From positions 1-29,355 of the IMG/VR virus record IMGVR_UViG_3300048928_000083: 29,355 bases of DNA. One strand, 5' to 3'. The stretch comes from a virus. The position numbers and the translations under genes are program-made. Of the stretch, positions 3,666-8,382 are shown in pieces. Each line of letters starts with the position of its first letter. Position 1 is the stretch's first letter. The notes under the pieces were generated by a model. That model saw only the letters and a program-made list of their open reading frames with translations. It made no database searches and had not been told where the DNA came from.

Positions 3666-4261
3666 TGGGCAGCCTCCGCTTGGCGAACTGAGTTGATGTA
3701 CGCTTTAAACGCTTCCCCATCATCACGGCTAGTGCCCACATGATTCTCTCCAACAGTCCATGAGGCCTTTGATAATCCACCAGGGAATCTAAAATAAACC
3801 GTGATGTCTTTCTTGTGCCCGATGTAAGCCGTGACGTCTGTAATTCCAGGGAATTTTGCTTCCGCTTCCGCAATGGCGGCCTGCTCTGCTTCATGAGTAC
3901 GCTTGCGCTCCGCTTCGCAATCAAGGCGATGATTAATCCATCGCGCCTCGCACTCCATATCGCAATACACAGAATCGCCACCCCATACGCGGCCTTCTGT
4001 CTCTTCATCAACGTGACAGTTGCAATAGGCGCACTCTTGCCAAAATCCAAACTCCTCAACCAGAACGCGAGGTGGGACACGACCAATTTCTGCGTATTTA
4101 TCAGCCCCAGGTATGCGCTTACACGATACGCAGTTGAATTCCTCTTCCAGCTCGTTCGCACCTTCACGGCGAGCGACCACGTTGCTTTTAGCAAAACGGA
4201 TAATCCCGTACTCATCGCCCTGCACGTAGTAAGCTTTCAGCACTTGAATATTGTTGCTCAT
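3662..4261 (-). CDS. Hypothetical cysteine-rich early protein
   Basis: In this 199-residue protein the first 110 residues hold CVSC, then CAYCNCH, then YCDMECE, a spacing that suggests one or two zinc-binding knuckles. A charged helical stretch (AERKRTHEAEQ...) follows, then a small domain with VTAYIGHKKDITVYF. Junctions with both neighbours are 4-bp overlaps, so it is coupled within the leftward operon. I do not recognise a family with known function. Zinc binding is inferred from cysteine spacing only. Confidence 0.7.
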   Translation of the reverse strand: MSNNIQVLKAYYVQGDEYGIIRFAKSNVVARREGANELEEEFNCVSCKRIPGADKYAEIGRVPPRVLVEEFGFWQECAYCNCHVDEETEGRVWGGDSVYCDMECEARWINHRLDCEAERKRTHEAEQAAIAEAEAKFPGITDVTAYIGHKKDITVYFRFPGGLSKASWTVGENHVGTSRDDGEAFKAYINSVRQAEAAQ

Positions 4262-4461
4262 GGCTGCACTCCTTTTTTCTGCTTGTTGTATACAGCCCAG
4301 CTAAGGGCATCGAGCTTGTCACGGCCTGCTTTGTCGTACATGTGGATACCATCGATACAGGCGTGCTCCTGCTTCACCTGCTCTTCGAGAGCGCTTATCT
4401 CTTCGTAAGACAGGGTTGCAAGCTTGAGGCGATTCCAGCCAAAGTTACGTATGCGTGTCAT
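4258..4461 (-). CDS. Small hypothetical early protein
   Basis: This 67-residue charged protein has a helical centre (YEEISALEEQVKQEHACIDG) and no membrane segment. A longer open frame reaches back to 4569. I chose the ATG at 4461 because it has an AAAGGAG site at proper distance and overlaps the upstream stop as ATGA, matching the other junctions of this operon. The function is unknown. Confidence 0.65.
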   Translation of the reverse strand: MTRIRNFGWNRLKLATLSYEEISALEEQVKQEHACIDGIHMYDKAGRDKLDALSWAVYNKQKKGVQP

Positions 4462-4937
4462 GACTGCACTCCTTTGCGAAGCTGGGCAGCGAAGTCCGTG
4501 CACAGAATTACGATGCTTTTCCACTTTCTCACGCCGGCGCGGTCGTTTACTGATTTGTAACGCTGACATTCATTGCCAGCGAGCGATGCCAATTGTTCCA
4601 CACTCTGCGCCCGCACTTCAGCCAGGAAAGCGTCGGTGGCGGTCGTATCAGCTCGGATGCTGTCACGCAGGATAAAGAACGCATCGAGCATCCCTGTTTC
4701 AGGCGTTTCATCCTGATGCTTCTCATACGCATCAAGAGCCTTCATCATCACAGGTCCGAATGGTTGAGGGTGTGCAGACTTCAGCCCCGCATTCTCCGCA
4801 GCCAGCGCCGCGCATCTGGCTTCAGACTCAGCAAGCTTCTTGCGCAGACCAATCCCGCAATCGTGCGCACCACTGCGACCTTTCTCAAACGAAAATCCGC
4901 AGTCGCAATAAAAAACATTATTTTTTTCGGTAATCAT
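4458..4937 (-). CDS. Hypothetical early protein with N-terminal CxC zinc-like motif
   Basis: This 159-residue protein begins with VFYCDCGFSFEKGRSGAHDC, a possible small zinc ribbon. A coiled-coil-like helix (KLAESEARCAALAAENAGL, about 33-51) and the segment FGPVMMKALDAYEKHQDE follow. A GGAGC site precedes the ATG and the start overlaps the ParB-like gene's stop as ATGA. Relatives with this layout occur in lambdoid early regions and are annotated only as hypothetical. No function is claimed. Confidence 0.7.
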   Translation of the reverse strand: MITEKNNVFYCDCGFSFEKGRSGAHDCGIGLRKKLAESEARCAALAAENAGLKSAHPQPFGPVMMKALDAYEKHQDETPETGMLDAFFILRDSIRADTTATDAFLAEVRAQSVEQLASLAGNECQRYKSVNDRAGVRKWKSIVILCTDFAAQLRKGVQS

Positions 4938-5761
4938 GATGTTGCTCCATGACGCTGAGCGGCTATAGCTTTGTGCTCGTCGATAATTTCCACGACTTCT
5001 GCATGCACCAAACCTTCGAGAGAGATAACTCCTGTGTCGCTTATACCCGCCAGGCTGATCAGCTCTACAAGGCGACGCGCTTTCTTAACGCTAATTTCCG
5101 GAGCTATAACGCTGCGGGTGACTTTCTTCTTACCTTTGGCAGCAGCAGAAGCTTTATCCTTCTGAAGAACCTCTCCGGCCTTTTCGCCGAACTCTTTTAC
5201 TCGGTCAACGGCCACATCTACGGACACGGTTCCGGATTTAACTTCTTTCTGAACGTCGTGATTAGCTGTGCTAAGGAGCAGGAGCTTTTCGACAGTAGGA
5301 ACAGACTTGTTGACCAGTTTTGCGATCTCGCTGGTGGTCTGGTTGAAGGCGTTATGCAGCTCCTGAATAACTGCAGCCTGTTCCATATCGGAGAGAGGCA
5401 ACTGGTTGTTACTGGTCATGATGCGCGCCAGGCGCTGCACATCGTTACCGTTGAACGGCATGATGTGGATGCGGTCTACTGGCTTGCCAGCTTCAGCACA
5501 GCGCGCATAGCATCGGCGACGGCGGTGACCTTCAACAACCCACACTCCACCTTCATCACGAGCGATAACTTCCAGCGGTGGAACAGAACCACCGTTCATC
5601 AGGTAGTTGAACAGGTCATCATCAGCCTGGCGGGTGCGTTCGTCGTCTTCACGCTTATTGAAACCTTCACGAACATGGATATCGGAAAGGGCGATAAACA
5701 TTCCTGTGTCGGTGCGCTTAATGACACCGGCCTTGGTCATCTGCTTGAATGAGTTAGCCAT
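4934..5761 (-). CDS. ParB/Spo0J-like nuclease-domain protein
   Basis: This 275-residue protein has an N-terminal ParB/sulfiredoxin fold. IHVREGFNKR lies near residue 28 and the ParB box II-like EGHRRRRCYARC near 77, followed by MTSNNQLPLSDMEQA. A helix-turn-helix (TSEIAKLVNKSVPTVEKLL) lies near 143-161 and a basic linker near 205-220. Family members act as CTP-dependent partition clamps or as DNA-binding regulators or nucleases. No ParA partner gene is present here, so plasmid-style partition is unlikely. Its start overlaps the upstream stop by one base (TAATG). Confidence 0.85.
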   Translation of the reverse strand: MANSFKQMTKAGVIKRTDTGMFIALSDIHVREGFNKREDDERTRQADDDLFNYLMNGGSVPPLEVIARDEGGVWVVEGHRRRRCYARCAEAGKPVDRIHIMPFNGNDVQRLARIMTSNNQLPLSDMEQAAVIQELHNAFNQTTSEIAKLVNKSVPTVEKLLLLSTANHDVQKEVKSGTVSVDVAVDRVKEFGEKAGEVLQKDKASAAAKGKKKVTRSVIAPEISVKKARRLVELISLAGISDTGVISLEGLVHAEVVEIIDEHKAIAAQRHGATS

Positions 5762-6178: not shown

Positions 6179-6433
6179 TTAGAAGAGGCCGCCTTGGTCT
6201 TTGGGTGAGGTGCGTTTTCTCCGGGTAACTTCAGCTTTTGAAACCTGTTTATCTGCCCAGGCTTTCGCATGCCTCATCACATCGTCGAAAATCGCGCCTT
6301 TCTTACTGGCTTGTGACATGCGCTTATATAAATCAATCGCTTGCCACGCCCCCCCCTGAGCCACCGAAGAGGAAAAGCCTTGCTTAATCAGCTGTTCCCG
6401 CACGTTTTTCTCAATAAATTCGAGGTGGTTCAT
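6179..6433 (-). CDS. Small hypothetical early protein
   Basis: This helical 84-residue protein has a basic C-terminus (RRKRTSPKDQGGLF). The GGAGG site ending 4 nt before the ATG is strong. It is the first well-supported gene after the long leader of the leftward transcript, and is separated from the next gene by 58 bp. Similar small proteins occur in many enterobacterial prophages without known role. Confidence 0.7.
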   Translation of the reverse strand: MNHLEFIEKNVREQLIKQGFSSSVAQGGAWQAIDLYKRMSQASKKGAIFDDVMRHAKAWADKQVSKAEVTRRKRTSPKDQGGLF

Positions 6434-6770
6434 CAGTCCTCCAGTGGAAATATCCGCTGAATTTTGGTTGCACGAATCCCTCGCCAGGTGGCGACAAAAA
6501 ATAAAGGGGTTTCGTTTTAGTAAGCACCCAACCAGGGCACTTAGTGAAACGGACGGCTGCCACCGCCAGTTAGCTTCTCCACAATTGGGAGCGCGTTCTC
6601 CTGAGGTTGATTTAACGACTGAGGCCTCTCAAGGAACCGGCTGAACGCGCTTTCAGTTGTGAAAAGGGGCGGTCGACATTAAGGGATTTAAAACTGCCGA
6701 CCGCCAAGACTACACACAGCATCTGATACAGCGACTACGGTTTACACAACTGGAAGCGCACTCCGTTCGT
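6434..6770. other. Region with no convincing protein gene, rich in inverted repeats
   Basis: No reading frame here has both a good start and protein-like composition. Instead it contains a CGCC/GGCG hairpin near 6482-6493, the repeat arms at 6580-6661, an 11-bp stem at 6668-6705 and the left arm of a second long stem. It acts at least as the untranslated leader of the leftward genes, and probably as part of a structured RNA (separate entry). Confidence 0.55.
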
Positions 6771-6857
6771 TTACTTACCTGTCATCCACAACCGATAGTT
6801 GATGGAGTGCGCTTTCATGTTGTGTGCCGGGATTCCACCGGCTCCCATCTGTTTTTT
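6580..6857 (+). ncRNA. Candidate structured RNA antisense to the pL leader
   Basis: Two long stems share one sequence family: 6580-6598 with 6643-6661 (19 bp), and 6744-6764 with 6804-6825 (about 21 bp with one bulge). A shorter stem at 6668-6678/6695-6705 lies between them. All four non-Watson-Crick positions in the two long stems become G-U wobbles if the RNA is read on the plus strand, but A-C mismatches on the minus strand. The middle stem has one mismatch that favours the minus strand. The array ends in a plus-strand hairpin followed by six T. No clear promoter was found upstream of 6580, so the 5' end is unknown. Confidence 0.45.
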
Positions 6858-6887
6858 AAGCCACTCAGATATCGTCTGGGCTGTCAC
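6771..6887 (-). CDS. Possible 38-residue peptide coupled to the preceding small ORF
   Basis: A GTG at 6887 overlaps the stop of the preceding 65-codon frame as GTGA, a classical coupling arrangement. The product has protein-like composition (TISEWLKKQMGAGG, then KAHSINYRLWMTGK at its end). It runs through the right arm of the long inverted repeat. No ribosome site is obvious beyond the coupling, and no homologue is recognised. It may be a decayed gene. Confidence 0.3.
   Translation of the reverse strand: MTAQTISEWLKKQMGAGGIPAHNMKAHSINYRLWMTGK
6826..6857 (+). terminator. Rho-independent terminator at the end of the structured RNA
   Basis: A GCCGG/CCGGC stem (6826-6830 with 6838-6842) with 7-nt loop is followed after 9 nt by TTTTTT. 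It abuts the right arm of the second long inverted repeat directly. The T-run exists only on the plus strand, opposite to pL transcription. Confidence 0.5.
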
Positions 6888-7081
6888 CTAATCGCCACGC
6901 TGGTGAAACGTCTCTGGCTGTCGTACACAACTGGCTTGCACATTCCGGCTACCCGCTGGATCGGGATACTGTCAAAGGAATCCCCGGACCGCTGCGGCAC
7001 ATGTGCCATATGCCGTACTGCACTTGCTGCCTGTCTTTTCACCACATCAGGCTCGGTGGTATTCTTGGAGTTCTCACACAA
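6884..7081 (-). CDS. Possible small early ORF (65 residues, TTG start)
   Basis: A 65-codon frame opens with TTG, or more plausibly later at an internal GTG or ATG. It has balanced composition (VKRQAASAVRHMAHVPQRSG...) and ends in a GTGA overlap with the next small frame. There is no clear ribosome site before the TTG. It lies in the pL transcript where lambdoid phages often carry tiny regulatory or host-takeover genes. I cannot name it. Confidence 0.3.
   Translation of the reverse strand: MCENSKNTTEPDVVKRQAASAVRHMAHVPQRSGDSFDSIPIQRVAGMCKPVVYDSQRRFTSVAIR
7038..7065 (+). promoter_or_regulatory. Weak candidate promoter for the plus-strand membrane protein
   Basis: TTCACC at 7038 and TATTCT at 7060, with a 16-bp spacer, each match four of six sigma70 consensus bases. 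They end 33 bp before the ATG at 7099. A promoter here would let the membrane protein be expressed in the lysogen while pL is repressed. Confidence 0.25.
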
Positions 7082-7098
7082 CCAAGAAACTGAAAAAC

Positions 7099-7416
7099 AT
7101 GAACAATCCTTTATCCAACCTTCAATTGGATGTTTGGTACAAGGTGATGATCGTCATTTGCACGATCGTATTCCTCTCTACCGCTGGTGGACTGCTACCA
7201 AAATTACCTACAAATTCAGCGCTTCTTATTTCTCTTGGTGGCGTATTTTTTTGCTGTGGTGAATGGAAAAATCACCCACGCTACACAATCGTCGAAGAGG
7301 CCATGGGCCAGAGATTTCTTGGCACTGGCTTTAAGCGCGCCTTCAGTATCACAGGCACCATTCTTTGCTTGCTTGGTGCCTATTTGATTATCAAGGGAGT
7401 CATGCCACTTCTGTAG
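7099..7416 (+). CDS. Small inner-membrane protein, opposite strand within the pL region
   Basis: This 105-residue protein has two strong hydrophobic segments in the N-terminal half (about 14-29 and 37-50) and one at the C-terminus (about 84-104). A polar middle contains GEWKNHPR. The start NNPLSNLQLDVWYK looks like a genuine N-terminus of a small enterobacterial membrane-protein family. It runs against pL transcription, so it would be best expressed in the lysogen. By analogy with lambdoid SieB and other exclusion proteins it could block superinfection, but no motif proves that. Its C-terminal part overlaps a minus-strand frame (7216-7509). Confidence 0.6.
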   Translation: MNNPLSNLQLDVWYKVMIVICTIVFLSTAGGLLPKLPTNSALLISLGGVFFCCGEWKNHPRYTIVEEAMGQRFLGTGFKRAFSITGTILCLLGAYLIIKGVMPLL

Positions 7417-7509
7417 GTGACAACCGCATTTAGGGCACTTGCTATAAACAGGTGTAAACATCATCCCTTTAGGGAGATTTACCATCTTTCTGTTTTCGCT
7501 AGTGCTCAT
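7216..7509 (-). CDS. First pL-proximal ORF, zinc-ribbon basic protein
   Basis: This 97-residue frame has its ATG about 29 nt downstream of the predicted pL transcription start, the place occupied by N in lambda. It contains CPKCGCHLQKW near residue 29, a zinc-ribbon-like knuckle, and a strongly basic C-terminus (KKYATKRNKKR). Only a GGTAGG site precedes it. Two thirds of it lies antisense to the membrane-protein gene at 7099-7416, so one of the two may not be made. An N-like antitermination role is only positional speculation. Confidence 0.4.
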   Translation of the reverse strand: MSTSENRKMVNLPKGMMFTPVYSKCPKCGCHLQKWHDSLDNQIGTKQAKNGACDTEGALKASAKKSLAHGLFDDCVAWVIFPFTTAKKYATKRNKKR

Positions 7510-7544
7510 ACTGCCTACCCACAATGTTCGCTGTTGATGATTTG

Positions 7545-7573
7545 AATATACAAAACGTATTCATCAAGGTCAA
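7545..7573 (-). promoter_or_regulatory. Leftward early promoter pL
   Basis: On the minus strand TTGACC (7568-7573) and TATATT (7545-7550) are separated by exactly 17 bp, a strong sigma70 promoter. Start of transcription is expected near 7538. The -10 is overlapped by one repressor operator and the -35 by the other, so CI should repress it. Confidence 0.85.
7548..7560. promoter_or_regulatory. Repressor operator OL1
   Basis: ATACA-AAA-CGTAT is a 13-bp near-palindrome matching the consensus shared by the sites in the cI-cro gap. It covers the -10 region of pL. Confidence 0.75.
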
Positions 7574-7585
7574 TACGATTTGTAT
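7573..7585. promoter_or_regulatory. Repressor operator OL2
   Basis: ATACG-ATT-TGTAT is the same operator in opposite orientation. Its centre lies 25 bp from OL1, and it abuts the -35 of pL. Confidence 0.7.
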
Positions 7586-7692
7586 ACAAAAAATCGAGGT
7601 TAACATTATGTATTTGTTTATTAACGAAAGAATGGATGAAGATAGATGTGTATAAGACTATTTAGACGTGTAGCGCTGTATGATTCTTGGAA

Positions 7693-7710
7693 CCCAGCCG
7701 GGTAGCTGGG
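7693..7710 (-). terminator. Hairpin just after cI
   Basis: CCCAGC and GCTGGG form a 6-bp stem 13 bp past the cI stop codon. On the minus strand the following bases are only modestly T-rich, so it is at best a weak terminator. On the plus strand a T-run (TTTTT) follows about 10 nt later. The rest of 7586-7692 shows nothing else recognisable. Confidence 0.4.
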
Positions 7711-7722
7711 CATCAGATGTTT

Positions 7723-8382
7723 TTAGAGCAGTCGTAGCTTGGTTTCAACGGCAACACCAATGATTCGACAGTTTCCGTTTATTGGAACAAGAGGCCATTG
7801 CGGATTTAGCCCTTTCAAATATTTTTGACCCCCATCAATGATCAATTTTTTGAAGGTGGCTTCATTTGTATCTGATAATTTTGCGATCACCAAGCTGCCG
7901 TTTATAGGATCTCTTCCTGTATCGAACAAGACAAAGGTACCCTCAGGAATACTAAGGCCAACTGGCGCGGTCATAGAATCACCTTCAACTTCTAGCCAGA
8001 ATGCCTCTCCCTGGATATGTGCATCAGACTCAAGCCATAGATCGATATCTTTCATGGTATAAGCTTCTACAGCTTCTCCCCAGGCCCCAGCTTTGACGCT
8101 GCTTAATACGGGATACTTTTTACCGGGTTTATATCGGCCAATGTACTCAACATCCCCTTTAAGGGTCTCATCAACTATTAAACCACCCGCACCAACAGAA
8201 AAATTTTTTTTCCCTAAAAACTCTAGGATTCGTGCGATCTCCTCCAGGCTGGGCTCACGCCGGGCATTCAACCAATGACTGACTGCACCTTTGGTTATGC
8301 CAAGATGCTCTGCCATCTGCTCTTGAGTAATCCCCTGTGATTTCATCAGGGATTTAGCTAGGTCGTACCATTTCATAGTCAT
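7723..8382 (-). CDS. CI-like prophage repressor, HTH plus S24 self-cleaving domain
   Basis: This 219-residue repressor keeps the lysogenic state by binding the operators at pL, pR and pRM. An N-terminal helix-turn-helix (residues about 19-40, TQEQMAEHLGITKGAVSHWL) is followed by a linker and a LexA/UmuD-type S24 peptidase. The peptidase shows the cleavage site A98-G99, catalytic S136 in EGDSM and K168 in VIAKL. RecA-stimulated autocleavage and SOS induction are therefore expected. The ATG at 8382 (MTMKWYD) lies 7 nt after a -10 hexamer, so the mRNA from pRM is probably leaderless as in lambda. An alternative ATG lies at 8376. Confidence 0.93.
   Translation of the reverse strand: MTMKWYDLAKSLMKSQGITQEQMAEHLGITKGAVSHWLNARREPSLEEIARILEFLGKKNFSVGAGGLIVDETLKGDVEYIGRYKPGKKYPVLSSVKAGAWGEAVEAYTMKDIDLWLESDAHIQGEAFWLEVEGDSMTAPVGLSIPEGTFVLFDTGRDPINGSLVIAKLSDTNEATFKKLIIDGGQKYLKGLNPQWPLVPINGNCRIIGVAVETKLRLL

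Follow-up and report, generated by a model that had tools for sequence, protein, structure and literature searches.

The locus considered here raises the question of what is encoded in the leader of the predicted early leftward promoter (pL) of a phage. The window, i.e., the whole stretch of 29,355 nucleotides that was analysed, had been described in a first-pass annotation as carrying an unannotated structured non-coding RNA locus in this leader. That description was upheld by the structured elements found there, namely the modules E and G, the terminator M and the long hairpins. Comparison with related loci gives good support for reading the locus as an array of folded non-coding RNAs encoded leftward, on the strand opposite to the one called earlier. 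The features, in leftward order, are as follows:

7545–7573, minus strand: predicted promoter pL (TTGACC-17-TATATT), a candidate from the consensus scan only.
6886–7017, minus strand: structured RNA module G, from homologues, covariation and a CM match.
6826–6884, minus strand: structured RNA module E, from covariation, G-U bias and a CM match.
6743–6825, minus strand: long hairpin H2 (arms 6825–6804 and 6764–6743), its own pairs being strand-neutral.
6662–6705, minus strand: leftward intrinsic terminator M, with a T-run kept despite replacement of the stem in relatives.
6580–6661, minus strand as a candidate (its own mismatches favour plus): long hairpin H1, directly past M, from pairing in 16 relatives.

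The leader thus runs G, E, H2, M and H1, and E starts about 650 nt from the predicted pL. A predicted promoter (TTGACT-17-TATATT, a consensus match) also lies upstream of E in the relative L004. The closest relative found is phage mEp390, and the layout of the leader is retained in the E. coli prophages L004 and L005. The consensus scan detected no sigma-70-like promoter on the plus strand within 6380–7850. Counts of promoters on the opposite strand came from stretches that differed in length and were left out of account. The phage of the window encodes a LexA-type protein repressor. A rightward ORF of 105 aa (7099–7416) lies inside the pL leader and had no family match in PHROGs, Pfam, NCBIfam or PADLOC; other phages carry different rightward genes at this position, that of L005 being an ECs1072-family gene. 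In addition, a ParB-like protein is encoded in the early leftward operon of the window (4934–5761), and an annotated ParB-like gene is present in the same operon of some relatives.

The stretch 6826–6884, designated E (59 nt), was found in about 100 phage records, and pattern scans yielded 136 E loci. The first scan pattern fixed part of the sequence, and invariance in that part is therefore partly imposed. E contains a helix, S1 (6882–6879 with 6862–6859), and a hairpin, GCCGG-UGGAAUC-CCGGC (6842–6826), with a T-loop-like loop. In an alignment of 48 distinct sequences, 97.9% of cells were paired and covariation was 0.192, compared to 0.004–0.051 in slid controls. One S1 pair is variously CG, UA, UG, AU or GC, and less constrained scans revealed further S1 changes (ACTC/GAGT in L158 and AGAC/GTCT in L166); on these alignments S1 is regarded as firm. 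The T-loop-like hairpin showed changes on both sides in three of its five pairs, with the loop UGGAANC in nearly all sequences. Non-Watson-Crick pairs read in the leftward sense comprised 20 G-U and 1 A-C, and the consensus fold scored −15.0 leftward and −11.0 rightward. The window contains a single copy, with a CM match of 91.6 bits. A proposed pseudoknot helix, S2, was disrupted in 7 of the 48 sequences with no compensation, and a nested CAGA/UCUG helix competes with it for the middle helix of E. Lacking covariation in S2, E as a proven H-type pseudoknot was withdrawn.

Module G (about 130 nt) has 59 homologues. The window segment 6886–7017 matches epsilon15-type Salmonella and Enterobacter phages, a Stenotrophomonas phage and Klebsiella phages. 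An alignment of 28 sequences contained 25 predicted pairs, 10 of them with changes on both sides, and the consensus fold again scored better leftward (−18.6) than rightward (−14.8). G lies on the strand of E in all 49 loci that carry both, and its CM match in the window reached 146.5 bits in a single copy. Among 5,426 E. coli genomes, 46 carry G and 41 carry part of the region 6500–6900, and E was found in 3 of 198 genomes of one family. This low prevalence points to a phage module and not a host gene. Searches against Rfam 15, both the gathering-score search of the window and the E-value searches, returned no match to E or G, and no literature on modules of this type was found. E and G are two new RNA families that are common to many unrelated phages.

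The inverted repeats reported in the first-pass annotation are real, as computed from arm complementarity: 84% for H1 (6580–6598/6643–6661), 91% for the middle stem (6668–6678/6695–6705) and 93% for H2 (6751–6764/6804–6817, within 6743–6825). On either strand, no shuffled sequence folded as well as 6560–6870 (z −4.65 on plus and −3.48 on minus). Pairing between arms of different hairpins had also been suggested, and 6647–6665 and 6741–6759 are indeed 89% complementary; such cross-pairing is strong only in close relatives. The earlier strand call relied on wobble pairs, and the H1 and H2 mismatches in the window are G-T when read rightward as was stated, but the argument does not generalise across H2-type hairpins. 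In 45 distinct strong hairpins of all families, read leftward, 57 A-C and 49 G-U were counted, so strand assignment from H2 wobbles was rejected as neutral. H1 of 16 distinct close relatives, read in the same sense, showed 33 A-C and 4 G-U; this bias favours the rightward strand, contrary to E, with few independent changes behind it. The arm sequences of H2 are unrelated in other phages and the pairing is kept, as in hairpin 2 of L004, which shares the pairing and none of the sequence of the window H2. H2 has a bulged A after CACAAC, and the bulged base is conserved. As a guess, this bulge and the A-C pairs close to CACAAC may interrupt the leftward hairpin for a functional reason. The 11-bp repeat TACACAACTGG is present twice (6743 and 6924), as had been noted, against a chance expectation estimated at about 0.06 in 701 nt. 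The copy at 6924 falls in a linker of G that varies and has another sequence in most relatives, and the repeat is weak evidence. Hairpin arms of L049, L050, L052 and L053 are frequently the boxA-like TGCTCTTA or TGCTCTTT, which may reflect chance or common descent. A boxA/nut site was considered and rejected: TGCTCTT(T/A) occurs in the arms of some phages, yet boxA-like matches in the window do not exceed chance frequency, with none within 6580–7021.

The middle stem of the first-pass annotation exists as described and is reread here as a leftward intrinsic terminator, M. The U-run comes straight after a G+C-rich stem, an arrangement that relatives keep. Across about 35 distinct loci the stem is swapped for other complementary sequences and a leftward run of T4–T8 stays. 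In the window M has four T only and is unlisted by a strict scan (5 T, loop 3–8). The box GTGTGTAGTCTTGG precedes M in the window (6717–6704) and usually in relatives. A known case from a lambdoid prophage, DicF RNA and the dicF leader, likewise has a hairpin/terminator within a leader of pL type. M resembles DicF weakly (16.3 bits, far under the curated cut-off of 48), and identity was rejected; unlike DicF, the M stem is freely replaced in relatives.

E and G recur in about 140 phage and prophage loci, within non-coding arrays of which some hold tRNAs. Carriers include N4-like, SopranoGao-, DS8- and epsilon15-type phages, and the modules extend over unrelated hosts and phage groups (N4, PBM-3, DS8, SopranoGao, phi_KPN_H2, KP13-27, SPN1S and ST512-KPC3phi13.3). 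When all loci were scanned with ARAGORN and the models of seven modules, the counts were E 138, G 58, J 37, K 23, V 21, T 20 and F 9. In this survey, whose loci are not independent relatives and include the same phage twice in a few cases, 306 modules and 40 tRNAs shared one strand and 1 tRNA was opposed. The order is G first, then mostly J/K/T, E, V and tRNA-Arg. A tRNA was detected near 30 of the 136 E loci; in N4, E lies inside the tRNA array and on the tRNA strand. tRNA-Arg(UCU) abuts H2 in L004, L005, L034 and L070, and in the first two it is a minus-strand gene (4259–4335 and 3927–4003, respectively) between the middle stem and hairpin 2. ARAGORN and Rfam detected no tRNA in the window. 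In SPN1S and ST512-KPC3phi13.3 the array opens with a promoter-like sequence, continues with G, a hairpin and tRNA-Arg, and closes with a terminator; it is flanked by terminase and by the portal/connector gene on the opposite strand. Sequence comparison shows that E, G and M are encoded leftward, in the direction of the tRNAs, that their structures are conserved and that the modules come in a fixed order.

The other modules were noted in the same arrays. Module F (L002 minus strand, about 2660–2830; L049 2984–3141; L053 2090–2200; L024) is tmRNA-like, with a pseudoknot-like stretch followed by a short, proteolysis-tag-like frame (ANDDVVLMAA, ANEEAYLMVA or ANEEMYLAVA, each with a stop); it occurs in N4-like phages, DS8 and KP13-27 and has weak Rfam tmRNA matches (E 0.11–1.3). 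Module T is tRNA-like, with a D-arm-like GCGCAGGCTGATGCGC, a T-arm-like hairpin and a long acceptor-like stem without CCA. Its 20 matches, all co-directional with E/G, include L050 570–680, L049 2495–2620 and, in Pseudomonas phage D3, L054 1520–1630. D3 also has a partial E-like hairpin (L054 1479–1523, 24.6 bits) in its tRNA region, on the tRNA strand. Modules J, K and V (37, 23 and 21 matches) occur in the same arrays on the same strand, in L057, L070, L076, L124 and others.

The first-pass annotation had proposed a rightward RNA of about 6580–6857, antisense to the pL leader, that stops at a rightward terminator and has a regulatory or immunity role. In its favour, the wobbles of H1/H2 in the window, and those of H1 in close relatives, are G-U when read rightward. 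However, the stem 6826–6830/6838–6842 and the T-run 6852–6857, although they exist, are 9 nt apart, and the terminator scan made no rightward call at 6825–6857. The T-run is the complement of an A-rich segment of E, and the supposed terminator is E read backwards. The antisense strand is likewise contradicted, because E, G, M and the tRNAs of relatives share the leftward direction of a pL transcript, and no plus-strand promoter was found within 6380–7850. The modules are also carried by virulent N4-like phages, and epsilon15-type phages have them outside the immunity region; an immunity RNA opposing pL therefore cannot be their general function, and the rightward reading retains very little probability. 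P4-type RNA immunity relies on repeated complementary segments in a leader, and the leader of the window has such segments too. A P4-like immunity was nevertheless rejected since the H1–H2 cross-pairing is not conserved past close relatives (the score falls from 47 to 30 in L034 and L093). Unlike P4-type immunity, the modules are present in virulent phages, and the phage of the window has its protein repressor.

A leader acting in cis only, in which G, E and the hairpins would control the early leftward genes by acting on RNA polymerase or M (put-/nut-like antitermination, or attenuation), is supported by the position in the pL leader ahead of M and by the same position in many relatives. In HK022, put RNA alone brings about antitermination through the beta' zinc-binding domain. 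It is about 70 nt with two stem-loops, putL lying just after pL and putR after pR (PMC9378689). E is similar in being a structured RNA in a pL leader but lies about 650 nt past pL, in one copy and with another sequence and structure. Identity with put was rejected, as E and G are single-copy in the window and not placed after both pL and pR. The presence of E within the N4 tRNA array and of the SPN1S G array away from the pL/pR region, ending in a tRNA and terminator, also makes a purely cis-acting leader unlikely. If the alternating hairpins were instead DNA-level recombination or transposition sites (attC- or REP-like) for module swapping, the shuffling of modules and tRNAs between hairpins and the conserved bulged base would be accounted for. 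The arms, however, are wholly different between phages with pairing alone kept, E has a strand bias indicative of RNA, and no recombinase gene occurs among the neighbouring annotations examined; this is the least probable of the explanations weighed. Decay of tRNA- or tmRNA-derived sequence with no present function would agree with the tRNA- or tmRNA-like modules T and F and with a window that has no tRNA. It is highly improbable given the 90% mean column identity of E across very different phages, which is accompanied by compensatory changes.

The nearest kind to E and G is represented by GOLLD and ROOL, structured RNAs of unknown function that phages and prophages frequently encode close to tRNA islands (PMC12286853). 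Many GOLLD members are longer than 800 nt and the family has a profile of its own, whereas E and G are short modules in a fixed-order array; identity with GOLLD or ROOL was rejected as no Rfam model matched. The record of epsilon15 annotates an RNaseIII processing site over a hairpin beside a G remnant and a repressor site near a promoter. This hairpin is likewise long and lies in an array with the G remnant. The epsilon15 array differs in being located between the terminase and portal genes, with G truncated and E absent. The truncated G (L145 1501–1590) is fused to a terminator.

Overall, this region of the window is probably an early operon that is read leftward and made up of modular structured RNAs, in which the long hairpins would serve in processing or insulation and E and G would act in trans. 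RNA polymerase would start at pL and transcribe G, E and H2 in turn, followed in several relatives by tRNA-Arg UCU. Transcription would then reach M, with some transcripts continuing past it, across H1, to the early genes. The long hairpins are most likely processing or insulating stems subject to RNase III-like cutting, a role suggested by stem length and the epsilon15 annotation only. Such cutting would release E, G and the tRNA as separate stable RNAs. We infer leftward transcription from pL, processing, RNA stability and function in trans, the last because the modules occur outside pL leaders. E and G would probably act on the tRNA/translation side of infection.

More tentatively, the arrays could constitute an unrecognised operon type that is shared and reshuffled among phages, in which structured RNAs of seven or more families (E, G, J, K, T, V and the tmRNA-like F) are set in a fixed order together with tRNAs. 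Its RNAs would be made early and would target tRNAs or ribosomes in trans, e.g., as decoys that divert host defences based on tRNA cutting. Apart from the tRNAs themselves, phage tRNA regions and early leaders are generally taken for empty spacer. E and G indicate that this spacer holds conserved, covarying RNAs missing from Rfam in N4, in epsilon15-type and lambdoid phages and in several Klebsiella phages. N4 and epsilon15-type phages serve as laboratory models, which makes the function of RNAs of the E/G type directly testable.
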